Origin: a virus
Direction: 5' to 3' (one strand)
IMG/VR virus record: IMGVR_UViG_3300033143_003373
Coordinates: 1-25,324 of that record
Length of the DNA: 25,324 nt
The notes below the pieces were generated by a model. It ran no database searches and was not told the origin of the DNA. It saw only the letters and a program-made list of their open reading frames with translations. How positions within the stretch are numbered: position 1 is the first letter of the stretch; every line of letters begins with the position of its first letter. Shown one piece after another: positions 1 through 25,324 of the stretch. The position numbers and the translations under genes are program-made.

Positions 1-894
1 GTGATCGTTGTGTGCCCTCTTGCCAACCGGGAACGTGTTCCGGCCTTCGTTTTCAAGGTCCCCCAGGATGGAGGGGTCCTTTTGGTTCATCTGCGCCTGA
101 ACACGGAAATAACGTCTGCGGAAAACCCGAGGCCCCCAGCCGAATAAGTATCGACTTTTGAATAAATGCCAGCAGGCCAGGGCGTAAAAAATCCTGCCAA
201 TGGTAGGCTGAATGCGAGGCAGGCAGATCAAGCCTAGAGCGAAAAACAGGGTGATCCCGATGGGCATCACTTCCGGGTAAAGAAAAGAATCCAAGACCGC
301 CAGTCCGATCGTGACGGAACACCAGGCCGCTCGGCATCGGCTCCAAACGATGGCTATTCCCACCGGAACCAGGCCGACAAACCACCAAGCGGAGCCAGTC
401 AGGGCCAGATGAAAGCCGATGAAAAATTGAGGAGCCAGGTATGCCGCCGTATAGTTACTGTTCCCCAGCCAGGAATAAAGGCGTGTTTTCTTGCGCCTGG
501 TCCGTAAAAACTCAGCGGTTTCCTCGTGGATCGGGTCAATGGCGAGCCATTGGTGCATCAGGCCATAGATCGCCACAAAAGGAGCGGGCAGGAATAACGC
601 CCGCAAGACAAGTTCTATCGGCGCGAGGCTGCAACAGAAGGCAAAAAGCAACACCCCCCACCACCGGGTCAAATCCTCTAAGGCTCCTCGGGGATCATCA
701 CACCAGAACAGGCTTGCGGTAAGATAGGCCACGAACAGCCCCAGGTATAACATGGGGCCGTCCGTGGTCAGCGGAAGGAACGGAAGCAAGGCTAAAAAAG
801 CCAGGCAAGAGAGCAGGACAAAAATCCTGTCCTTGAATTCCGTCCATCCGTAGTGGCCCCGGCCCCGAACAATCGGGACCAGGGCACCCCTTGG
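1..894 (-). CDS. O-antigen ligase/polymerase-like membrane protein (WaaL/Wzy superfamily), 3' end cut by window edge
   Basis: This frame is open for 298 codons, from just after the stop at 895-897 to the window edge, so the C-terminus is missing. It is a multi-pass membrane protein with hydrophobic stretches around codons 23-42, 50-64, 80-97, 152-165, 171-184, 192-205 and 209-225. It carries the landmarks of the O-antigen ligase/Wzy polymerase superfamily in the right order: LGNSNYTAAYL near codon 143, WSRCRAAW near 184 (the SRxA element), FGWGPRVF near 251, and AHNDH near 294 at the start of the periplasmic loop histidine motif. Family members join or polymerise lipid-linked glycans on the outer face of the inner membrane. 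The start is unclear: the first in-frame ATG is at 753, inside the hydrophobic region, and no good ribosome site is seen upstream. It lies downstream of the capsid genes on the same strand. Its role is inferred to be surface-glycan modification of the host. Confidence 0.72.
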
Positions 895-1188
895 TTAGCT
901 AAATCGCGGTTGTGCGATGATCACGCTCGCGCCGTTCGAATCCCAATCACTCGGGACATACCCAATACAAGGAGTCCCGGAATTGGAAGCGGGAGCAATG
1001 ATAAAGAAATCCCCGGCCAGGGCCTTCATTCCGTGGTTGCTGTACGCCGTGCTGAAGTATGTCGTGTTCGGCGTAGTACCCGCCACGGAGGCCACATTGT
1101 CGCCGTTGACATCGCAGTAATGCCACAGCGAATTGCCGCCCTCCCCGCCGAGGTGGATTCGGTTGAGATAGGTTCGATCAAAACTCAT
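895..1188 (-). CDS. Small virion-operon protein, unknown function (97 aa)
   Basis: I do not recognise the family. The product is 97 residues, rich in Gly, Ser, Asn and Thr, with several aromatic residues and no membrane segment or coiled coil. This composition suits a beta-rich structural protein. A strong AAGGGAGG ribosome site lies 8-9 bases before the ATG. It follows the major capsid gene with a 54-base gap containing a stem-loop, a position often taken by capsid decoration or head-completion proteins, but that is only a guess from context. Its TAA stop directly abuts the ligase-like reading frame, which continues in the same frame. Confidence 0.7.
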   Translation of the reverse strand: MSFDRTYLNRIHLGGEGGNSLWHYCDVNGDNVASVAGTTPNTTYFSTAYSNHGMKALAGDFFIIAPASNSGTPCIGYVPSDWDSNGASVIIAQPRFS

Positions 1189-1210
1189 TTTTTGGATCCT
1201 CCCTTGAGGT

Positions 1211-1234
1211 CAGGCCCAGGGGTTCCCAGGCCTG
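1211..1234 (-). other. Stem-loop between major capsid gene and next gene
   Basis: A six-base arm (CAGGCC/GGCCTG) encloses an inner GGG/CCC pairing. On the minus strand no T-run follows, so it is not a classic terminator. It could stabilise the capsid mRNA end or lower expression of the downstream gene. Confidence 0.35.
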
Positions 1235-1242
1235 TCCCTCGG

Positions 1243-2076
1243 TTAATTGTCTTCGCAGTAGAATTCCACCACGCCTTGATCATCGACCCGGATCGCCCCG
1301 GCACTCATCATTGAGTCAACGAGGAATGCCGCCTTTTCGGCTACCCAATCGATTGATGTCTTGATCGCGGCGTTTTCGCCGAGGCCGATTGCCGACCGAT
1401 GCCAAGCCAGGCAAATCAAACTCGATCCACTGGAAGGCAGGCCGGTATGAGGCACCCACATCATGTTGAGCCACCGTTTGGCCTGAGTCCCAGTCAGCCA
1501 GGGATGATTACCCTGCCCGACATAATCGGCGTCGGCAAACTCCTGAATGCCCAGGAGGTCATTCCACCCGGCGGGCGGGACAAACACTACCCGGTCGCCA
1601 TCATCGGGAACATCGTTGTCATTGAGTTTTTTGAAAACAGCTTTCGCGTAGTCTTTGGTGATGGTTCCGGAATAGGTATCCGCGATTTTCTGCGCGGCAG
1701 GCAATGACGCTCGGGCAGCGGAAAACACCAGGTCGTCAATCTTCCGCCCGAGAGCATAACCACCACTGCGGGCGTATGCCTGTCTTTCGTCAATGTTGGT
1801 TTTAAGTTCGTCGAGCTTGTCGACGTAGTCAGCAGCGTACCAGTCTTCCATAATGGCTTCCACGTAGGAATGCGCCAGGTTCATGACGGGAACGTTGCCG
1901 TTCCGGCTCTTCTGCCCAGCGGCACCCTTCCCCAGCTTAGGGAACCGCACCGTGGACGCGCCCTTTGCATCCTTCACTCTCACCGTGGATCGGGTCTTTG
2001 ATCCCTGCCTTTGGTACGCCAGCTTTACCTCAGATTCAAACTGGGTCACGAAGGCATTGTCAATAGTCGTTGTCAT
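1243..2076 (-). CDS. Major capsid protein (277 aa)
   Basis: This is the probable HK97-fold major head protein that assembles the procapsid on the scaffold. The length (277 aa), the acidic/aromatic composition and the place directly after the scaffold gene all fit. The N-terminal part (MTTTIDNAFVTQFESEV) and the middle segment around IDERQAYARSGGYALGRKID resemble phage capsid proteins of podovirus-like genomes. The start was chosen at the ATG at 2076 because GGAGGATGGAGAT immediately precedes it. A TTG five codons upstream would overlap that ribosome site. A 122-base gap separates it from the scaffold, the largest gap in the head operon. I saw no clear promoter there. The assignment rests on synteny and general resemblance rather than on a catalytic motif. 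Confidence 0.8.
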   Translation of the reverse strand: MTTTIDNAFVTQFESEVKLAYQRQGSKTRSTVRVKDAKGASTVRFPKLGKGAAGQKSRNGNVPVMNLAHSYVEAIMEDWYAADYVDKLDELKTNIDERQAYARSGGYALGRKIDDLVFSAARASLPAAQKIADTYSGTITKDYAKAVFKKLNDNDVPDDGDRVVFVPPAGWNDLLGIQEFADADYVGQGNHPWLTGTQAKRWLNMMWVPHTGLPSSGSSLICLAWHRSAIGLGENAAIKTSIDWVAEKAAFLVDSMMSAGAIRVDDQGVVEFYCEDN

Positions 2077-2198
2077 ATCTCCATCCTCCAAGGGTAATAT
2101 CAGGGGTTAGCGTTTGTCCGGGTGTCCTCTGCGGGGTTCCTGGGGTGTCCAATGCTGGGGCCAGGTCCCGACCGCTTCGGGGCGGAGATCCTCTATCC

Positions 2199-3062
2199 TT
2201 AAGCATTGCCCGCCAGTTGCTTGAACCCTTCCTCGACCTTGCGGACAAGGGCAGGGTCGCGCCTGGCAGGATCGTAATACTCAGGTCTTGACATCAGTTC
2301 TTCAAGTTCTTCCCGAGTCATCGGGCTATGCGCCGCGCCACCTTCGCCGATGCCCTTGAGTTTATCCTCTCCGACAACTTGGGACAGCTTAACGAATCCC
2401 CTCACAATGTCGGGATCAACGTGCAGGCCTGCGTCAGCCAGTTTCTTGGCCGCCTCCTCCCCGAATACTTGACGAAGGGCCTTGTCAGCGGCGGTGATGT
2501 TGGCCTCATAGTTCTGCCCGTACTCCTGCTTGAGCATTTTTTCCGTTTCGGCCTTCACCTGTTCGATGGTTTGCTCTTGGGTCTGTTCCCATTCTTTGGC
2601 GTAATTCGCCAAGAAGAGCCTGATTCCATCGGCTTGGTTCGGGGTCAGACCGTACTTGTGGGCAGTTTCGGCAAACGCTTTGTCCATTTCGGGGTTGCCT
2701 TCCATGCCCTCAACCTCAGTAAACTGATATTTGTCCGGAGATTCAGGCCGCCCAATGGCTTTATAGAAGTTCGCCCATTCCTCGTCCGATGCGTTCGGGC
2801 CGGGAACGGTGATCGGGTTTTCCCCGAGCTTCTTTCTCGCTTCAACGTGGGCCTTTAACTGCTCCTCGGGGGTTTTATACCGCCCGAGAATATTGAGCGC
2901 CTCCTCGCTTTTAAGGGTCTCATCCTCGTACCCCTGAAGCCACTCAGGAATCTCCGGGGTCCCCGGTTCGCCACCCGCACCTTTTTCATCGGGTGGGGTT
3001 TCGGATGGATTCCCAGGGGTTCCTTTGGATTTGTCGTCAACATGATCATCCATCAAAGTCAT
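2199..3062 (-). CDS. Scaffolding protein (287 aa)
   Basis: This is a highly charged, mostly helical protein with no Cys and a disordered acidic/Pro-rich N-terminus (about residues 1-45). The segment around residues 90-115 (SDEEWANFYKAIGRPESPDKY) is typical of phage scaffold proteins, followed by a long helical region (about 130-215) likely to form coiled coils. Scaffolds guide capsid assembly and are released or degraded before packaging. The ATG overlaps the stop of the Bbp19-like gene by ATGA, with a GGAGGGA ribosome site 5-6 bases upstream, so translation is coupled. The major capsid gene follows. Confidence 0.82.
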   Translation of the reverse strand: MTLMDDHVDDKSKGTPGNPSETPPDEKGAGGEPGTPEIPEWLQGYEDETLKSEEALNILGRYKTPEEQLKAHVEARKKLGENPITVPGPNASDEEWANFYKAIGRPESPDKYQFTEVEGMEGNPEMDKAFAETAHKYGLTPNQADGIRLFLANYAKEWEQTQEQTIEQVKAETEKMLKQEYGQNYEANITAADKALRQVFGEEAAKKLADAGLHVDPDIVRGFVKLSQVVGEDKLKGIGEGGAAHSPMTREELEELMSRPEYYDPARRDPALVRKVEEGFKQLAGNA

Positions 3063-3355
3063 TCGTCTCCCTCCGCTGTTTGAGGTTTTGGTTGCGGCGG
3101 TTTCACTCGGGTCTTTGCCAATGCCCGAGCGATCGCCTCGTAATCCTGAGTGATGCCCATGCAGTCCAAAATGTAGAGCACCACGTCACGCCTGCCTGCC
3201 ATGAAGTCTTGCCCTCGGGGGTCCGGCTCCATGCCGGCGTCAAGGACCATGGCATAACTCATCAGGTCCCCCAGTACCCGAGGTCCCAGTGTTCCTGATG
3301 CGAATACCCGGCGGTAAATCCTTTGTCTTTCACTATCCTCTAGCAGCTCTGGCAC
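3059..3355 (-). CDS. Bbp19-like phage protein (98 aa)
   Basis: The product resembles the small Bbp19-type family found next to portal and scaffold genes in podoviruses. The pattern RRVFASGTLGPRVLGDLM at about residues 15-32, followed by GRRDVVLYILDCMGI near 54-68, matches the usual layout (RRVF, GxxVL, GRRDV). The function is not established. The position between portal and scaffold suggests a head-assembly role. The start is GTG, chosen because GGGGAGGAGG lies about 6 bases before it. The gene overlaps the end of the portal gene by 23 bases and the scaffold start by 4. Confidence 0.68.
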   Translation of the reverse strand: MPELLEDSERQRIYRRVFASGTLGPRVLGDLMSYAMVLDAGMEPDPRGQDFMAGRRDVVLYILDCMGITQDYEAIARALAKTRVKPPQPKPQTAEGDE

Positions 3356-4949
3356 TCTCAGCCTCCTCCCCAGTTTTTTCCACCGCCGCCCCTTGTGCGG
3401 CCATCTGCAACATCATTTGCAGTTGCGCCAGCTTGGCGCGTTCTTGCTCGATCATGGCAACCTCTTCCTCGCTCCGCAATGCCTCAGTCGGCGCGCCGTA
3501 AAGGTCCCATGCACGCCGGATCGCCTTCTTTGCGTCGAACACCACAGCGGCGTCAGGATCCAGTTGCAAGAACGGAACGGCGAATTGCATGGCGTTTTGA
3601 GTCGCCCGGCCCTCCAGGGCCTTCAGGGCTTTCGCAAGCGGGCTTATATAGTCCACAGTCAGGGCCTCACCTTCAAGGGCTTGCGGGGGATCCGGGAACA
3701 TGCCCGCCCGAGACATGATGTTGAATCCCCGCTCAATCGCAGGCCCCAGGGCCTCGGAATGCAGCCGCCCGATTGCAGGTCCCAGGATCATCAGCCGTTC
3801 CTGTACCCGCTCAACAACCTCGGTTGCGGTCATCCCGGTGGTCTGTTGGGAAAGCATCAAGAAGACATCCACGAAGAACGCCTGTTTAACAAGGTTGCGG
3901 GTGTCTTGCGTCATCTCCATTCCGAAGGGAACGTTGCCCAGGATCTCGCCCAGGGCCTCGGGTTTCTCCCGCCCGTGGTCCCGCCTGAAATAATTGATTG
4001 CGTTCGGGCTTGTACGTAATCGACCGGCAAAGGATGCAGGCACCCACAGGGGCGGTTCAACGATCTTCTGCCCGGCCAGAAGGTCCGAACGGCGTTGTTT
4101 GTGCAGAGTTTTAATATCTGGCATGGCGTCTATGCCAGGACCTCGCCCGTACACCTCCCTCGAAGTCTTCCGCCACCGGGCCGTGTGCCAGGGATCTTCC
4201 CAATATCCGCCCTCGTGGAGGAGGTGCCGGGTGTCTTTTTCGTAGTAGATACTTGCAAACGGCTTTCCTTCCCTGTCAATCCGTCCGGGTATCCAGTTTT
4301 CACGCGGGGTTGTGACATGTACAACCGTGATTTTCTTATCGGGCTCCTTTTCCAGGGCGTCCCGCGCCTCCCTTGAAAGGCTCTCCGCCCCAAATTCGCG
4401 GGCCAGGTTCCTCAACGTTTGCTTGTATTCCCGGTAATGAGTGTCCACTACCCCCCGCTCGTTCTCCGCAATGCACACCTCACGCGGCGGGAAGACGTAA
4501 AATCGCGATATTTCCTCATCATCCTCCGCTTGGAAGAGATGAGCGGTGCCGAACCCGCATAAATCTTCGTAAAATTCCAAGATAACTTGGTAAAAATTGG
4601 TTTTCCCCAGGCTTTCAACGTGGATCCGGGTAACATCTTCGAGCCATTCCCGTACATCCGGCTCGTCGATAAGTTGGGTATTGACAAGGCGATACTGAAA
4701 CCATGGCGCCGCTTCAGAAGTAAGGTGCCCCAGGAGACCGGCGGATAGGATATTGAGCGATTGGCTCGGGGTTGAATCGTAAACCTTGTCGGTCCGCTTT
4801 TCCCCGGCCTGGGATTCGCTCGTGACGTACTCCTTCCAGGGCATCAAGTAAGTAACCACATCTTCCCAGCGTTGTTCCCATAGAGTTCGGCTTGTCAGCA
4901 GGGCATCGTGGCGTGCGGCATGATATTTGATAATGTCGTCGGTTCTCAT
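3333..4949 (-). CDS. Portal protein, head-to-tail connector (538 aa)
   Basis: This is the dodecameric portal of the T7 gp8 / head-to-tail connecting protein family, the channel through which DNA is packaged and ejected. The N-terminal helical region (RTLWEQRWEDVVTYLMPWK) followed by SQSLNILSAGLLGHLTS near residue 62 is typical. The length of 538 residues matches T7-like portals. The stretch QQTTGMTATEVVERVQERL at about 366-384 corresponds to the MTATEV motif of this family. The C-terminus is a charged helix (about 490-538). The ATG overlaps the preceding stop by one base (TAATG), with CGGAGG 8 bases upstream. This family is the main evidence for a podovirus-type virion. Confidence 0.92.
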   Translation of the reverse strand: MRTDDIIKYHAARHDALLTSRTLWEQRWEDVVTYLMPWKEYVTSESQAGEKRTDKVYDSTPSQSLNILSAGLLGHLTSEAAPWFQYRLVNTQLIDEPDVREWLEDVTRIHVESLGKTNFYQVILEFYEDLCGFGTAHLFQAEDDEEISRFYVFPPREVCIAENERGVVDTHYREYKQTLRNLAREFGAESLSREARDALEKEPDKKITVVHVTTPRENWIPGRIDREGKPFASIYYEKDTRHLLHEGGYWEDPWHTARWRKTSREVYGRGPGIDAMPDIKTLHKQRRSDLLAGQKIVEPPLWVPASFAGRLRTSPNAINYFRRDHGREKPEALGEILGNVPFGMEMTQDTRNLVKQAFFVDVFLMLSQQTTGMTATEVVERVQERLMILGPAIGRLHSEALGPAIERGFNIMSRAGMFPDPPQALEGEALTVDYISPLAKALKALEGRATQNAMQFAVPFLQLDPDAAVVFDAKKAIRRAWDLYGAPTEALRSEEEVAMIEQERAKLAQLQMMLQMAAQGAAVEKTGEEAESARAARG

Positions 4950-12895: not shown

Positions 12896-13180
12896 ATGGA
12901 AGGATACTACATTGTACGGACTTATTCAGCGGGAGTGTTCGCGGGTGAAATTGAGTCCCGCGATGGTAAGGAAGTCGTGATGAGAAATGCTCGCCGCCTC
13001 TGGTACTGGGATGGGGCGGCGTCTTTGTCTCAACTCGCTATGGAAGGAGTAAGTAAACCCCAAAATTGCAAGTTCCCCTGTGAGGTCAAAAGGATCATCC
13101 TCACAGAGGTTATAGAAATTTTGGAATGCACTCCAGAGGCAAAAGCCTCAATTGAGGAGGTGCCAGTATGGAGTGCATAA
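12896..13180 (+). CDS. DUF6948-like phage protein (94 aa)
   Basis: The sequence VRTYSAGVFAGEIESRDGKE near residues 7-26 and ARRLWYWDGAASLSQLAMEG near 32-51 are hallmarks of the small DUF6948-type family seen in many phages and mobile elements. Its function is not known to me. The product is 94 residues and close to full length, ending in VPVWSA. AAAGGAG lies before the ATG, and it is the first gene after the structured leader. The last 13 bases also contain the start codon of the glycine-repeat gene in another frame, so the two are translationally linked. Confidence 0.82.
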   Translation: MEGYYIVRTYSAGVFAGEIESRDGKEVVMRNARRLWYWDGAASLSQLAMEGVSKPQNCKFPCEVKRIILTEVIEILECTPEAKASIEEVPVWSA

Positions 13181-13413
13181 ATTTTGGCTACGGCGACGGC
13201 TTCGGCGACGGCTTCGGCGACGGCGATAGCTCCGGCTCCAGCTCCAGCTACGGCTCCGGCTACGGTTCCGGCTACGGTTCTGGCTTCGGCGACGGCTTCG
13301 GCGATGGCGATGGCTCTGGATCCGGCTCCGGCAATGGCAATGGCAATGGCAACGGCAATGGCAATGGCTACGGCGACGGCTTCGGCGACGGCTTCGGCGA
13401 CGGCTTCGGCTAG
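13168..13413 (+). CDS. Gly-X dipeptide-repeat protein, copy 1 (81 aa)
   Basis: After the leader MECINF, every second residue is Gly with few exceptions, and the partner is Tyr, Phe, Asp, Ser or Asn (for example GYGDGFGDGFGDGD, later GNGNGNGNGNGNGY). GAGGAGG lies 7 bases before the ATG, which is inside the end of the DUF6948-like gene. In an extended strand all side chains would lie on one face and all glycines on the other, as in silk-like or amyloid-forming repeats. The protein could self-assemble, bind nucleic acid or metal (Asp-rich), or form condensates; none of this is shown. Repeat DNA keeps other frames open, so strand and frame were chosen by ribosome site and coupling. Confidence 0.68.
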   Translation: MECINFGYGDGFGDGFGDGDSSGSSSSYGSGYGSGYGSGFGDGFGDGDGSGSGSGNGNGNGNGNGNGYGDGFGDGFGDGFG

Positions 13414-13421
13414 GTGCCAGT

Positions 13422-13577
13422 ATGGAGTGCATAAATTTTAGCTCCGGATCCGCCTCCGGCGAGAGCAACGGCTCCGGCGATAGCAACGGCTACGGTTCTG
13501 GCTTCGGCGACGGCTTCGGCGATGGCGATGGCTCTGGCAATGGCTACGGCGGCGGATCCGGCTCCGGCTACGGCTAA
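13422..13577 (+). CDS. Gly-X dipeptide-repeat protein, copy 2 (51 aa)
   Basis: This shorter second copy begins with the same MECINF leader and then SSGSASGESNGSGDSNGYGS, followed by the same Gly-Asp/Phe/Tyr repeats and a TAA stop. Its upstream 28 bases are identical to copy 1, but the ribosome site is reduced to TAGG because the duplicated segment lacks the GAG part, so translation may be weaker. The middle is less regular, with Glu and Ala, which suggests either decay or separate selection. It lies nine bases after the TAG stop of copy 1. Confidence 0.6.
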   Translation: MECINFSSGSASGESNGSGDSNGYGSGFGDGFGDGDGSGNGYGGGSGSGYG

Positions 13578-14361: not shown

Positions 14362-15082
14362 GATCTACAAAAAAGACGGAAAAAGCTATCCGTCCTCGAC
14401 GACAATAACGGGCCAGCTTGACAAGAGCGGGCCCCTTACATGGTGGGCCGCCGGATGCGCGGCCGACTACGTGATTAAAAAAATCAACGAGGCCAAGACT
14501 CAGACTTTTAAAGCAGCCACCGTTATCCAATTCGCCGAACTTGCTCGAAAGCAATTCCGGGCTGTCTCCAGCCAAGCGGCTGATGTCGGCACGGCCGTCC
14601 ACAAGGCAATAGAGCACTATCTGAAAACCGGCAGGGAACCCAAGGTTGAAGATGATGAGGTTCTTGCTGGTTTTTTGGCTTTCCTGGAGTGGGCCGACAA
14701 ACATGAACTCAAGCCTATTGAAACAGAAGTTACTTTATATGGCGAAAACTACGCCGGCACCTGCGATCTTATCTGCACCCTGGATGGCAGGCCCTACGTC
14801 ATTGATTTCAAAACCTCCAAGGCCCCGAAAAACGGCAAGCCCTATGAAGAATGGGGCTACCAGCTCGCGTCATACAGACATGCCGCCGAGCTTGCCAACC
14901 TGGTCCCCGAAGACGCCGGCCATGGCGTCCTGCGCCTCGATAAAGAAACAGGATACCCTGATTGGCACGACATAACTGATCAGTATGAACGAGACCTGGC
15001 GATCTTTCAGGCTCTCACCAAAATATGGTGGCTCCGTCATCCGCAGTATGCGGCGGACTGGGAAGGAACTCTTGGTATATGA
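14354..15082 (+). CDS. RecB/Cas4-like PD-(D/E)XK nuclease (242 aa)
   Basis: This is a DNA exonuclease of the PD-(D/E)XK superfamily. The pieces are in the expected order: GTAVHKAIEHYL (79-90) with the motif His 83, E124, D138 in AGTCDLICT, then VIDFKTSK (149-156) with D151 and K153, and YQLASYRHA (169-177), the Q-Y motif. AGGAGATAACAC precedes the ATG. In phages such a nuclease resects ends to expose single strands for a partner annealing protein, and the next gene is a good candidate partner. It lacks the Cys cluster of true Cas4. Confidence 0.85.
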   Translation: MGRIYKKDGKSYPSSTTITGQLDKSGPLTWWAAGCAADYVIKKINEAKTQTFKAATVIQFAELARKQFRAVSSQAADVGTAVHKAIEHYLKTGREPKVEDDEVLAGFLAFLEWADKHELKPIETEVTLYGENYAGTCDLICTLDGRPYVIDFKTSKAPKNGKPYEEWGYQLASYRHAAELANLVPEDAGHGVLRLDKETGYPDWHDITDQYERDLAIFQALTKIWWLRHPQYAADWEGTLGI

Positions 15083-15095
15083 AAGGAGGAAAAAT

Positions 15096-16331
15096 ATGGA
15101 AATGAACAGCAGCCCAGAGCTCAATTTTGACAAAGCCGAGGCCTCTCAAACAACCCCGGCCCAGGTCCCGGCTCCAGTTGCCCAGGAAATTACCCCGCGA
15201 ATAGTCAACATTGAAGACTACGCCATGAGCGCGCAAGGGTTGATCAAGCAGGTTCATCTTATCCAAGAGGTAATGCGCGAGGTCATGCAAGAGGGGGAAC
15301 ATTACGGGACCATCCCCGGAACACAAAAACCTACCTTGTACCAGCCTGGCGCCCAAAAATTGGCAATGACGTTTCGTCTTGATCCCCGCTTTACCATCGT
15401 CCGGGAAATCCATCAAGAGCGATTCATTGCATATTGGGTCCGTTGCGATCTTTACCATATTATCTCGTGGGTTCATGTCAGTTCGGGTATGGGGTCTTGC
15501 AACAGCAGGGAAGAAAAGTATCGCTGGAGATACAAAGAAACTCTTACTGATAAGCCTGTTCCCAAAGAATACTGGAACCTTCGCAACAAGAAAAACCTAA
15601 CCGAAGATGACCGAAAAAAGATGCTCCGTTTAGTTCCCAAAGAATATGCCACCAGGAAAAACGACGAAGGCAAGTGGGTCCTTGCCAAAAAGGAGCGGAT
15701 CGAAAATGACAATCCCTGGGACCTTGATAATACCCTACTCAAAATGGCCTGCAAGCGGGCCTTTGTGATGTCGGTTCTGAATGGGACCGCCGCATCCGAT
15801 ATTTTCACGCAGGACGTGGAAGATTTGCCAGCCGATTATCTAAATGCGGAAACCCCGCCCCCTCCAAACCAAAAACCTTCACAAAGCAAGCCAAAAAAAT
15901 CGAATAGTAGCTTTAAGAAGTTCCTTGATAGCATGGCCAACCTAAAAGCCGAACTCAATAAACTCACCGGCAATGATAATACTTATTATGGCGTACTGGG
16001 GTCCCACGGGTTTGAAAAATCGAATCAAATCAAAGACCGAAAAACTCAGATCGAAGTTTATACTGACATGCTGAAAAAGCTGGAGGCCCTTAAGAACACA
16101 GCCGAGCCCGCCGAGGATGCCTTCACGGCAGAGGTGAAAAAACTCGCCGAGGCAGAGGTGAAAAAACTTGCCGAGGCAGAGGTGAAAAAACTTGCCGAAA
16201 GGATCCCCGGCGATGTGTACCAGGGGATCCTCGAAGTATACGACATTGAAGACCCCGCCGACCTCGCTGAAGACGCCAGGGAAGGGTTCCTGGAAGATAT
16301 GCAGAAGGCGGTGGAGATGTACGACAAATGA
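15096..16331 (+). CDS. Putative recombination/single-strand annealing-type protein (411 aa)
   Basis: The core region has GEHYGTIPGT (67-76), LYQPGAQKLAMTF (81-93), GMGSCNSREEKYRWRY (131-146) and NTLLKMACKRAFVMSVLNGT (212-231) followed by DIFTQDVEDL. I know this pattern from uncharacterised phage and mobile-element proteins encoded beside RecB-like nucleases, so an annealing or recombination-mediator role is inferred. A Pro/Ser linker (252-275) leads to a helical tail with three copies of AEVKKLAE (345-368). The start at 15096 is supported by AAAGGAGGAAAAAT; a longer frame would overlap the nuclease gene. The stop overlaps the methyltransferase start by ATGA. Confidence 0.68.
   Translation: MEMNSSPELNFDKAEASQTTPAQVPAPVAQEITPRIVNIEDYAMSAQGLIKQVHLIQEVMREVMQEGEHYGTIPGTQKPTLYQPGAQKLAMTFRLDPRFTIVREIHQERFIAYWVRCDLYHIISWVHVSSGMGSCNSREEKYRWRYKETLTDKPVPKEYWNLRNKKNLTEDDRKKMLRLVPKEYATRKNDEGKWVLAKKERIENDNPWDLDNTLLKMACKRAFVMSVLNGTAASDIFTQDVEDLPADYLNAETPPPPNQKPSQSKPKKSNSSFKKFLDSMANLKAELNKLTGNDNTYYGVLGSHGFEKSNQIKDRKTQIEVYTDMLKKLEALKNTAEPAEDAFTAEVKKLAEAEVKKLAEAEVKKLAERIPGDVYQGILEVYDIEDPADLAEDAREGFLEDMQKAVEMYDK
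16128..16199 (+). repeat. Three tandem 24-bp units in the annealing-type gene
   Basis: Units at 16128-16151, 16152-16175 and 16176-16199 differ by one or two bases each and encode AEVKKLAE three times in a coiled-coil tail. Copy number could vary without breaking the frame. Confidence 0.92.
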
Positions 16332-17131
16332 GGGTTGGTTCCCTTTTCAGTGGTTGCGGCGGTTTTGACCTGGGGCTTGAGCGCGCGGGGATGAAAATTG
16401 AGTGGCAATGTGAAATCAACAGGCAATGCCGCCAATTGCTGAAACGCCATTGGCCCAATGTTCCAATCTTCGAAGATATAACGAAACAAAATGGTTACAC
16501 ACCAGTTGAACTTATCTGCGGAGGCGATCCGTGCCCGATTCGGAGTAGTGCCAGGGGAGCTTGGGAAACAAAAATTCCCGACCTCTCCGGATACTTCCTT
16601 GCCGTGGTCGGCAGATTGCGGCCCCGGTGGGTGGTCCGCGAAAATGTTCCTGCATCAGATGATGTCGATTTCGTTGCCTGCCTGGAAATGCTCGGATACA
16701 GAACTGTTATTATCTCAACAAACGCCGCTATGCTTACGGCTCAAAACAGAGAACGGGATTTCATTGTGGGATGTTATCCGGAAAACTACCGATCCTTCAT
16801 CCAGGCGATACCTGTCTCCCAAAATGATAAAAGGTATGCTGAGACGAAATATCAAAAGACGCCGGCCTATCCTGTTCTTACTACCCACCCATGCAGGTGG
16901 GATTCTCGGGACGGTTACGTTTGGGACGGATTCGGCCTCAGGGTTGCGGATAGTGAAGAAAGACGCCAGCTTACAGGGTTCCCAAGTGGATGGTTTGATG
17001 GATTATCTAAAACGGCAGTGGCGAGAATGACGGGCAATGCAGTTGTGGTGCCCGTTGCGGAAGCAATCGGCAAAATTATAATGAAAGCTATGACAAATAA
17101 AACCCGCCCGGAGCCTTCGGGTTCCGGGTAA
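16328..17131 (+). CDS. DNA cytosine-5 methyltransferase (267 aa)
   Basis: It transfers methyl groups from S-adenosylmethionine to cytosine C5. The motifs are in order: motif I LFSGCGGFDLGL (6-17), CEIN (28-31), catalytic Cys69 in GGDPCP (motif IV), RENV (104-107, motif VI), AQNRERDF (138-145, motif VIII), a short target region, RRQLTGFPSGW (212-222, motif IX) and TGNAVVVP (235-242, motif X). At 267 residues it is at the short end for the family but has all core motifs. There is no cognate restriction gene nearby, so it is probably a phage self-protection enzyme. The start overlaps the previous stop (ATGA). Confidence 0.93.
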   Translation: MRVGSLFSGCGGFDLGLERAGMKIEWQCEINRQCRQLLKRHWPNVPIFEDITKQNGYTPVELICGGDPCPIRSSARGAWETKIPDLSGYFLAVVGRLRPRWVVRENVPASDDVDFVACLEMLGYRTVIISTNAAMLTAQNRERDFIVGCYPENYRSFIQAIPVSQNDKRYAETKYQKTPAYPVLTTHPCRWDSRDGYVWDGFGLRVADSEERRQLTGFPSGWFDGLSKTAVARMTGNAVVVPVAEAIGKIIMKAMTNKTRPEPSGSG

Positions 17132-22121: not shown

Positions 22122-25106
22122 TTAAAAATTCGGGGTCATGGCCTGTTGCCTTTCCCGTTCAGCGGCCTCAACCGCATCCCGCAAAGATGGAGTTTCGGCC
22201 AAAAGCATCTCTCGCGCCAGCCGCCGGTATTGATAGATTACCTTTTTAATCATGTGGGCCTTGCCGCCATCCGGACCGTCATCCAGCCGCCGGTAAAAAT
22301 CCGACCGGAATAATTGCGAAAGAGCATCCCGGAGGGTCATTCCGTCAATCCGGGCCTCTTTCCCCGCCAGCGTTACGTATCTATGGTACTCCCAGGGTTC
22401 CAATTTTACGCCCATGATGCTTTTCGCCGGCATCCCGATCTTTGCCCCTACCTTTAGGATTTCCTCCGATATGGGGGCGTTTTTCGCCCTTGAATGATAG
22501 AAGGGGTTTACCAGGTCATACCAGCCCACTTCCAGGACAACCGGCTCTCCCCAGATGTTTACGCGGGGAGGCAGGTCCTTCGAGAACCCCGGAATGTTGG
22601 CTTTGTACTGATCCATAAGGGAATCAACATAGCGGATCTCGGGGTCCGTGATTCGCTCAACCGCCCGGACCAAGGAAGAATACGGCACGAACGATGCCAG
22701 TGAACGCCTTATATAATTCTCCCCGTAACGCTCGGGGTCCGATATGGCATTGATGAGTTCGGTGAACCCTCTCAGGTATGTCTTGCTGGTTATGTTTTTC
22801 GATATGCTCAGAAGGGCCGCCGTTGCCAGGTCCTCCGCGTCCTCATCTTCCATCTGCCCAAGGATTTCGGCCATGTCGGCCCCCAGACCGATGAGCCCGC
22901 CCAGGGGGTCAAGACGGCTGTATGAATAATATGTGTCCCCGATTTTGATACTGTACGGTTGCCAGCCGGTATCCTCTTTAAGTTTTCTCATTCGAGGGTC
23001 GGCAGGGCCTCCGCCGGTGATGATCCCCTCGCTCACGAGTTCGGCTATCGTAAGCATAGTAAGGGTCCCCAACGCCATACGCGCAAGGGCCAGGCTTCGT
23101 TGCGGCCCGCCTGCCTGAAGCATCGCCCTTGTCTCCCCTGCCAGGAAGGCGAGGGGAGTTCGTCTTGCGATGAATTTGGCAATGTTAATGGGGGTTCGCC
23201 TGAAGGGCGCAACATAGCGAAGGCCAGGGACTGATTTCACGAACCGATTAAGGGATTGCCCCGCCGGGCCTAGTTGTTCGGTCCAGGTCATTTCGCGGCC
23301 GAACTTGACAGCCTCCCGGACCATGTCAGGGTCAGGGTCCCGCTTGAATCGCTCAACCGCTTCGGCCAGAGCGTCACCCGTCAATCCTTCGGCTCGGGCC
23401 TTTCGTACCGCTTGAGCGTTCAGCTCCATGCGGTAAGCAATCGCCTTCATCAGTTCATCACCCGCGATAAGGACCCGGCTTTGTCCCCTCACCACATACT
23501 CGCCCAGGAAATCGACCGCCCGTCCGACATCAATTCCGAAAACCTGCTTGCCGTCCAGGCCCAGGTTTCTCGCAGTGATTGCCCGAGAACGTAAGGCGGG
23601 CTCCTTGACGTAAACATCGGAAGGTTCCCCGGTTTTTAACGCCCTATGCGCCAGCCGGAGACCATCCTTGAATCCTTCCACCATGCCGTACAGCATAGCG
23701 GAGGCCTCCCCGTGCTCGACCCCTTCGCCAAGTTGTTCGGCCACGAATCGCTCGGGAATGGAGTAAAAAAGAGCAGCCGCTGAACCCGTAATGTTGACCA
23801 CGTGGGTCGTTGGATTCGTCAGAAGGCCGTTGATCCAACCCTCAAAAATCATATCAAAAACCGTGGCCTTGTTAATGGCCCTTGTAGTGGTATTGACCTC
23901 GGCCAGGGTTTCAAGGCCCTGCATTTTCTTTGCAATCTCGGTCGCCAATTCAGGGGCCTCGGTGCCTTCAAGATACTCCTTGATGTTGGCGTCTACCGTG
24001 GCCCCCTTGAGACCCTTCACGGCCCGCATGATCTGAAGCGCCCGGCCGGCCTCGGCAATGGCCCCGCTTACGTGCTCCTGGATCGCTATATGCTGTTTGA
24101 ACGCGACAAGAAACTGAAACCTGTCTCGGTCCGTTGCGTCAACGGAAAGCACCCTGTCTCTTAATTTGCAAAGTTTCTTCGCACTGTCCAACATCAGCCA
24201 GATGGAGGCCATTATCTCATGTGCATTGAACGCCTGGCCTCTTTTCCTGGAGAGCAGGTCCGCAGTCGTATACCCGAGCTTTTTTGCCAACAATTTGGTT
24301 GCGTTGTTGGAAACAACACCCCGTCTTGCGTCATGTATGCGATCAGGGAAGGCAGCCGCTACCGTTCGGATGACATCGTGGATTCGTTGGGGGGCGTCTA
24401 GTTTGGCGTGATTGATGTTGATGGAGAAGGGCAGCTCAACCGGGGGCTCTTCTTCCAGGTAACGGCTGACATCTTCCCGGGTCTTTTTGACAAATTCCAC
24501 CAAGGGTTTTGAAAGGTTTTCCATGCTGGGGAGATAGGGATCTTCGGTTTCCATCACTCTGAAGGTCTTGGGTGCGGCTTTGATCTCCAGGAGGGAATCC
24601 ATCAGCCGCTCATTTGCGCCCAGTAATTGCTCAAAGGTGCTGACCACGCTGGTTCCTTCCAATTGCGCCACCGCATCCCGGACAACCTGCTTTTCCACCA
24701 TCCCCGACATAGCTTCAATGTCAGCGGGGCTTTCGGCGTATATGAACGTTGATGTTGCCCCAACCTGATTGGCCTGGTTTTTCAAGTATCCTTCAGCTTG
24801 AGCGGTCTTTAGAAATGAGACCGGGACCTCCTGGATCATCCGCACCTTGCCAGACGGCCCAGAGGTGAAAAAGACAATCGCCCCACCTTCCCGCGCCAGG
24901 TTTCGGCCCATTTCTGCTATGTCCTCGGGGATCCCGATGCGCCGATTAAGAAACGGGTGAGGGATGGAGGGCTCCAAGATGGGGTCCGACCATTCGGGCA
25001 GAAAGCCAGGCAGGGGCTTATTTTCATACGGAATTATGGGGGTTTCCTTATCCCCGAGGAGCAGCCTTATCCCCGAGGAGCAGAGCACTGTATGTGCCGG
25101 AATCAA
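22122..25106 (-). CDS. Large internal-virion/polyvalent-type protein, main part (up to 994 aa), separated from its JAB N-terminus by a frameshifting duplication
   Basis: This long helical protein is of the kind injected with DNA by podoviruses. Residues about 415-450 (FEGWINGLLTNPTTHVVNIT) start a segment common in very large phage virion proteins, with further helices around 530-700 and a charged C-terminus. Residues 60-145 (GGAIVFFTSGPSGKVRMIQE ... GATSTFIYAESP) resemble a degenerate MPN/JAB-like unit without the metal ligands. The only available start here is a TTG at 25106 with no ribosome site, lying inside the JAB frame. Removing one 19-base repeat unit joins it smoothly to the JAB segment. 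No lysozyme motif was seen. Confidence 0.72.
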   Translation of the reverse strand: MIPAHTVLCSSGIRLLLGDKETPIIPYENKPLPGFLPEWSDPILEPSIPHPFLNRRIGIPEDIAEMGRNLAREGGAIVFFTSGPSGKVRMIQEVPVSFLKTAQAEGYLKNQANQVGATSTFIYAESPADIEAMSGMVEKQVVRDAVAQLEGTSVVSTFEQLLGANERLMDSLLEIKAAPKTFRVMETEDPYLPSMENLSKPLVEFVKKTREDVSRYLEEEPPVELPFSININHAKLDAPQRIHDVIRTVAAAFPDRIHDARRGVVSNNATKLLAKKLGYTTADLLSRKRGQAFNAHEIMASIWLMLDSAKKLCKLRDRVLSVDATDRDRFQFLVAFKQHIAIQEHVSGAIAEAGRALQIMRAVKGLKGATVDANIKEYLEGTEAPELATEIAKKMQGLETLAEVNTTTRAINKATVFDMIFEGWINGLLTNPTTHVVNITGSAAALFYSIPERFVAEQLGEGVEHGEASAMLYGMVEGFKDGLRLAHRALKTGEPSDVYVKEPALRSRAITARNLGLDGKQVFGIDVGRAVDFLGEYVVRGQSRVLIAGDELMKAIAYRMELNAQAVRKARAEGLTGDALAEAVERFKRDPDPDMVREAVKFGREMTWTEQLGPAGQSLNRFVKSVPGLRYVAPFRRTPINIAKFIARRTPLAFLAGETRAMLQAGGPQRSLALARMALGTLTMLTIAELVSEGIITGGGPADPRMRKLKEDTGWQPYSIKIGDTYYSYSRLDPLGGLIGLGADMAEILGQMEDEDAEDLATAALLSISKNITSKTYLRGFTELINAISDPERYGENYIRRSLASFVPYSSLVRAVERITDPEIRYVDSLMDQYKANIPGFSKDLPPRVNIWGEPVVLEVGWYDLVNPFYHSRAKNAPISEEILKVGAKIGMPAKSIMGVKLEPWEYHRYVTLAGKEARIDGMTLRDALSQLFRSDFYRRLDDGPDGGKAHMIKKVIYQYRRLAREMLLAETPSLRDAVEAAERERQQAMTPNF
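25046..25083 (-). repeat. 19-bp tandem duplication causing a frameshift
   Basis: The same 19 bases occur at 25046-25064 and 25065-25083. Each copy encodes LLLGDK in the matching frame. As 19 is not a multiple of 3, the JAB frame meets TAA at 25048-25050, while the large frame continues. Confidence 0.95.
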
Positions 25107-25324
25107 TTATTACATGCCCCTTGAGTTTTGGGACCTTTTCCGCGAGACTGAGCGTAAACGACCTGTCATGCTCGGATGATACTGGGTTGCCCGAAGGATG
25201 ATTGTGAAGCACCCATACCTCATCAGCACCCAAGCGGTCGGCCCTCGAATTGACCCCCTGGATAAACCGGGCGGGGCCGTGCTTTCCGGTGAGTTTCACT
25301 TGCCCCGCCATTTTAGATGAAACG
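25048..25324 (-). CDS. JAB/MPN (RadC-like) metalloprotease domain, 5' part of the large virion protein, cut by window edge
   Basis: The frame is open to the window edge, so the true start lies outside. It carries a complete JAMM zinc motif, HNHPSG then ten residues and Asp (HxH-x10-D in VLHNHPSGNPVSSEHD), as in RadC-like and JAB peptidases. It ends KGHVIIDSGTYSALLLGDK and then a few out-of-frame residues. JAB domains cleave isopeptide or peptide bonds. In large phage polyvalent proteins they may process the protein itself or act on host defence proteins after injection. It is fused to, or was once fused to, the 22122-25106 frame. Confidence 0.75.
   Translation of the reverse strand, partial: VSSKMAGQVKLTGKHGPARFIQGVNSRADRLGADEVWVLHNHPSGNPVSSEHDRSFTLSLAEKVPKLKGHVIIDSGTYSALLLGDKAAPRG

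Follow-up and report, generated by a model that had tools for sequence, protein, structure and literature searches.

Does the 19-bp exact tandem duplication between a JAB-domain frame and a large virion protein frame belong to the working genome of this virus, or is it a lesion or an assembly error? The window, meaning the whole stretch of DNA analysed, is a complete linear virus record of 25,324 bp. The features that bear on the question are the following.

22122–25106, minus strand: 994-aa open frame as a gene finder would predict it, with a TTG start at 25106
22122–24510, minus strand: conserved C-terminal region, approximately residues 200–994, of a probable polyvalent virion protein of the T7 gp16-like type (internal virion protein D)
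24624–24962, minus strand: JAB-associated C-terminal partner domain, approximately residues 49–161 of the 994-aa frame; no Pfam family
25046–25083, no strand: 19-bp tandem repeat, in the linker that joins the JAB domain to its C-terminal partner domain
25048–25323, minus strand: 3' part of the JAB (RadC clade) frame, 91 codons; its 5' end is removed by the contig end

The repeat and the two frames

The sequence CCTTATCCCCGAGGAGCAG (+ strand) is present twice, head to tail, at 25046–25064 and 25065–25083. The copies are 100% identical, exactly as the initial annotation had described, and there is no longer array at 25046–25083, only two perfect copies. First-order/dinucleotide simulations of the window (n = 200) give a chance expectation of 0.055 exact tandem duplications (period 10–80) per window, and the longest in the 200 simulated windows was at most 14 bp. 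The 19-bp exact repeat is well beyond chance.

A unit of 19 is 1 mod 3, so the reading frame is moved by one. The same codons are thus read twice, from copy 1 by the JAB frame and from copy 2 by the other: the JAB side ends with SALLLGDK in copy 1, and LLLGDKETPIIPYENK opens the other side in copy 2. The JAB frame meets its stop, TAA at 25048–25050, in the second copy to be read. Across both copies the 994-aa frame is open. The motif HNHPSGNPVSSEHD in the JAB frame is an intact HxH-x10-D metal-site motif. Direct reading thus confirmed the earlier statements that this motif is intact, that the TAA falls in the second unit and that the large frame stays open through both.

The JAB frame matches the RadC-like JAB family PF04002 with 30.7 bits (cut-off 22.1) at model positions 57–109 of 121. 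The match starts only at model position 57 because the contig ends there; the upstream half of the JAB domain, with its conserved acidic residue, lies beyond the contig end at 25324. So the JAB frame extends further upstream in the real genome and is not a separate small gene. Cellular RadC models NF000642 and TIGR00608 score 30.1 and 23.8 bits, below their NCBIfam cut-offs (180 and 133.85); truncation of the frame accounts for part of the shortfall. A search by sequence for solved structures similar to the JAB piece found none.

Residues 423–988 of the 994-aa frame match phrog_6651 (internal virion protein; E 5e-53), and the same region matches internal virion protein D of Desulfovibrio phage ProddE and of Roseobacter and Pelagibacter podophages. 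The same contig encodes a portal, a major head protein, a T7-type scaffold protein (PF05396) and a terminase, and a tail fibre gene lies directly downstream of the internal virion protein gene. Both the profile match and the place beside the tail fibre in a T7-like morphogenesis cluster assign the protein to the T7 gp16-like group. It resembles T7 gp16 and phrog_6651 in the match at residues ~420–988, in the order internal virion protein–tail fibre and in the accompanying T7-like scaffold and portal. It differs from T7 gp16 in its unrelated N-terminal region, and the lytic transglycosylase domain of T7 gp16 was not seen in the 994-aa frame.

Repeats also occur elsewhere in the window. A 24-bp unit is present three times in frame (AEVKKLAE) at 16127–16198 (+), inside a 448-aa frame at 14985–16331. 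A C-5 cytosine DNA methylase (PF00145) is encoded at 16328–17131 (+) and overlaps the preceding frame by 4 bp. A long degenerate hexanucleotide repeat (GGCTAC-like) at 13168–13576, with Gly/Asp/Ser-rich frames, adjoins a change of coding strand.

A single-frame family and the question of a second start

The two frames of the window are found together in one frame in other proteins. The JAB protein WP_107787995 (368 aa) of the Nitrosomonas plasmid NZ_CP133084 aligns with the whole length of the JAB frame (42%) and, further downstream, matches residues 45–182 of the 994-aa frame (E 2e-7; BLASTP, direct comparison). RadC/JAB and the partner share a single frame in 10 proteins that we found: six to eight are stand-alone proteins of ~370–400 aa, and two lie inside giant polyvalent proteins, in frames of 3808 and 2994 aa. 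Beyond WP_107787995, more of these members came from one bacterial order. WP_107787995 and its relatives have the RadC/JAB domain and the same C-terminal partner, collinear with the two frames of the window; they differ in joining them in one frame of ~370–400 aa and in having no virion tail. WP_107787995 itself is on a conjugative plasmid, where it adjoins an ArdC-N/metallopeptidase protein.

We built a JAB + partner profile from the ten single-frame proteins and ran it against 366 frames of the window. It matched only two, in collinear order: the JAB frame at profile positions 116–197 (E 1e-20 among the 366 frames) and the 994-aa frame at positions 223–337 (E 5e-8 among the 366 frames). At about 27%, the partner domain has weak identity to its family; its match scores 28.8 bits against 6.2 for the best of 3000 shuffled decoys. 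Pfam and NCBIfam models gave no named match to the partner domain.

Judging from these alignments, the JAB frame and the 994-aa frame very likely descend from a single-frame ancestor, and the initial annotation, which had proposed an ancestral fusion of the two, is supported by ten single-frame proteins that match them consecutively. This homology evidence is independent of the LLLGDK that both frames share. Since the frames are consecutive in a single-frame family, the interruption is derived. The window departs from the family in having its two domains in separate frames, broken by the 19-bp duplication, and the repeat junction lands in the short variable linker of the family.

The JAB protein and the large virion protein might instead be a functional split, made as two products of adjacent genes, and both frames are indeed open over long stretches. 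We consider this very unlikely. The stop separates JAB from a partner that accompanies it in all other members found, and the downstream frame would need a start. The first ~20 codons of the 994-aa frame are an out-of-frame reading of the end of JAB, and the TTG at 25106 is unlikely to be its real start. None of the first 19 candidate starts (first 203 codons) has a Shine-Dalgarno match of more than 4 bases, compared with five or six for the portal, scaffold, fibre and several neighbours. The better candidates, those with a non-trivial ribosome site, all fall inside the partner domain (residues 66–154). An own start for the 994-aa frame was thus scored and rejected, as no candidate equals the ribosome sites of neighbouring structural genes; the scoring supports the earlier claim that the large protein has no sound start of its own.

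Exchangeable cargo on a conserved tail

Closer relatives of the tail were reached in IMG/VR with a two-sequence alignment. L124 has 45% identity over window residues 200–994, and L125, L126 and L133 have 37–39% identity to the tail region. In each of these four closest tail relatives, one frame runs through an N-terminal part of its own, and these parts differ. Those of L124 (about 250 residues) and L125 (about 460) are without known domains. L126 (1312–8250) has a 2313-aa frame with the polyvalent Pfam domains InPase and ART-PolyVal, and L133 (1–8202) has a frame of at least 2734 aa with DNA methylase-like and Strawberry-notch helicase domains. A JAB domain was found in none of the four. Comparison with related phages, which the initial annotation had put forward as a check, gave four tail relatives that are single-frame through their own cargo.

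Since the relatives share the tail and differ in their N-terminal parts, the alignments indicate a conserved tail whose cargo is exchanged, the pattern of polyvalent proteins. The window protein shows one cargo enzyme domain (JAB), with the rest of its N-terminal part beyond the contig end; the tail relatives L126 and L133 carry at least two disparate domains. The initial annotation was right about a virion protein and a JAB domain but missed both the probable polyvalent type with exchangeable cargo and the continuation of JAB beyond the contig end.

The giant frames that carry RadC/JAB and the partner are in L144 (2142–13565, 3808 aa) and L145 (3173–12154, 2994 aa). Their other domains include InPase, LPD38, LPD37, LPD1 or ddrB-ParB, and L144 has InPase, RadC and LPD38 together in one frame. 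Both have JAB and the partner in a phage-type polyvalent protein, as the window probably does; unlike it, they have no BLASTP similarity to the window virion tail region.

In a survey of polyvalent proteins, RadC/JAB cargo is listed for conjugative elements only (Iyer et al., 2017; PMC5512222). The window protein resembles the phage-type polyvalent proteins of that survey: it is a virion protein of large size whose N-terminal enzyme domains are exchangeable, as its tail relatives show. It differs in its RadC/JAB + partner cargo, its broken frame and an N-terminal part that lies outside the contig. By domain content, RadC cargo in phage-type polyvalent proteins does not fit the 2017 survey, which divides polyvalent domains into phage and conjugative types, and L144 is a clearer case than the window. 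This suggests that phage and conjugative invaders share RadC/JAB cargo. RadC/JAB + partner as cargo of a phage virion protein is a more lasting point than the duplication, and the partner domain, outside all Pfam models, is worth describing.

Close relatives of the JAB-to-tail region were not found in IMG/VR with the whole 994-aa frame, the JAB frame, an exact 20-mer beside the repeat or a two-sequence JAB–partner alignment. The JAB query against one genome per species returned only one ordinary chromosomal RadC. Neither the tail nor the JAB module was present in the records from which 46 terminase or recombination-protein relatives come, many of them fragments, and the tail query had no match in 369 genomes of the class of G108. 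A relative of 1776 aa, in L022, has an HExxH stretch by eye; Pfam gives no match there, and we claim no peptidase.

Origin of the duplication

The closest relative of the window is L013 (IMGVR_UViG_3300033153_008761), which covers window positions 1–3793 only, with about 94.6% DNA identity. L013 has a 22-bp exact tandem duplication, TTAAAAGCGAGGAGGCGCTCAA, at 880–924 in its T7-type scaffold gene. It moves the frame by one and brings in a TAA; the window has a single copy there (near 2893–2914). Extra homology at the ends of the 19-bp and 22-bp duplications is 0 and 1 bp, which is not meaningful.

A scan for exact tandem duplications of 13–80 bp covered the window, 84 IMG/VR loci (899 kb) and 8 GenBank phage loci (89 kb). 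Only the 19-bp duplication of the window and the 22-bp duplication of L013 break a long frame; every other one is a multiple of three in length or falls outside any long frame. No frame-breaking exact duplication was found in the other 83 IMG/VR and 8 GenBank phage loci (about 0.98 Mb). Taking these as the base rate, L013 (4.1 kb) would contain such a duplication with a probability of 0.004 to 0.013, a rough, post hoc estimate. So something about the virus or its assembly favours such lesions.

Between the window and L013, the portal part has 24 synonymous and 0 non-synonymous codon differences, and the head protein has 12 synonymous and 3 non-synonymous. These codon counts point to strong purifying selection on the structural genes and to a functional lineage. 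With such selection on structural genes, broken scaffold and virion proteins are not an old state, and the lesions must be recent.

The main rival to a real duplication is an artefact of assembly or library preparation, with a one-copy true genome and an intact gene. We regard it as a serious possibility, though less probable than a real event. The repeat is only ~240 bases from the contig end, where assembly is weakest, which also counts against a real duplication. The break would strike a protein that is intact in the relatives, and a pair of lethal-looking lesions in two contigs, one of them in the essential scaffold gene of L013, is more readily put down to bad assembly of this virus than to biology. 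Against an artefact, the junction between the copies does not exist in a one-copy genome and must come from some molecule or from blind joining of contigs, and the window has no N run to mark a contig joint. Nor is a general fault of the collection indicated, given the ~0.98 Mb of other loci free of such duplications. Literature on assembly duplications and slippage held nothing specific to such a case.

Since the new copy junction needs a source and there is no N run, we lean towards a real, recent 19-bp duplication in the sampled DNA, which we favour over an artefact with middling confidence. The locus would encode a single internal virion protein, polyvalent in type, in a T7-like podophage: N-terminal cargo that includes RadC/JAB and its partner comes first, and the conserved gp16-like tail after it. 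The analogy of T7 gp16 and of polyvalent proteins suggests that this protein is packaged in the head and injected with the DNA. Replication slippage would have produced the tandem duplication in the linker between JAB and the partner, shifting the frame by one so that translation ends in the second copy. The product would be a truncated JAB protein that lacks the partner domain and the virion tail, and a genome with the lesion would be defective or rescued by intact genomes. The duplication in L013 adds support, as it shows that the lineage yields such duplications, and not old ones. An internal virion protein is normally required for infection; a genome with the lesion should therefore be rare, yet it is the assembled form. 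The lesion would be segregating or confined to defective genomes rather than acting as a regulated device.

Beside a fixed mutation and an assembly error, the initial annotation had raised a slippage-driven on/off switch, in which one or two copies toggle the full-length protein. In its favour, slippage can also remove a 19-bp exact direct repeat. We found no positive evidence for a switch and hold it to be very improbable: there are two copies and no array, no relative has the repeat or a variable copy number at this site, the duplication in the sister contig L013 sits in another gene, and in the off state the protein would lose its conserved virion tail region.

We think it least probable of all that recoding gives the fusion, with ribosomes hopping one copy or slipping at CGG GGA TAA. 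Each codon of copy 1 does recur unchanged 19 nt further on, in the other frame, and a run of four Gs precedes the stop. Bypassing in T4 gene 60 uses matching take-off and landing codons (PMC5009743), and the window has a formal match of this kind. Of the conserved site and stimulatory RNA structure that mark T4 gene 60, neither was seen in the window. Local RNA stability does not exceed that of shuffled sequence (z 0.34), the site has no conserved counterpart, and L013 has no duplication in common with the window. Programmed bypassing found no support. Equally remote is the broader notion that the lineage tolerates frame-breaking duplications in genes for essential virion proteins (19 bp here, 22 bp in the L013 scaffold gene) by hopping or slipping and that intact proteins would still be made at some level.

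Taken as a feature of the genome, the duplication probably represents either an ordinary lesion or an error. It also illustrates that frame lesions in metagenomic virus contigs can be recognised from a conserved domain pair that has been split.

A further frame differs between the two contigs. Downstream of the head protein gene, window 1–890 and L013 2938–3803 hold a frame for a multi-span membrane protein with a weak IctB/O-antigen ligase-like match. The window is without about 43 bp that hold the ATG of L013. L013 is 58 bp shorter near window 225–299, at 17-bp direct repeats, and its frame is lost there. The membrane protein gene looks to be in decay in both.
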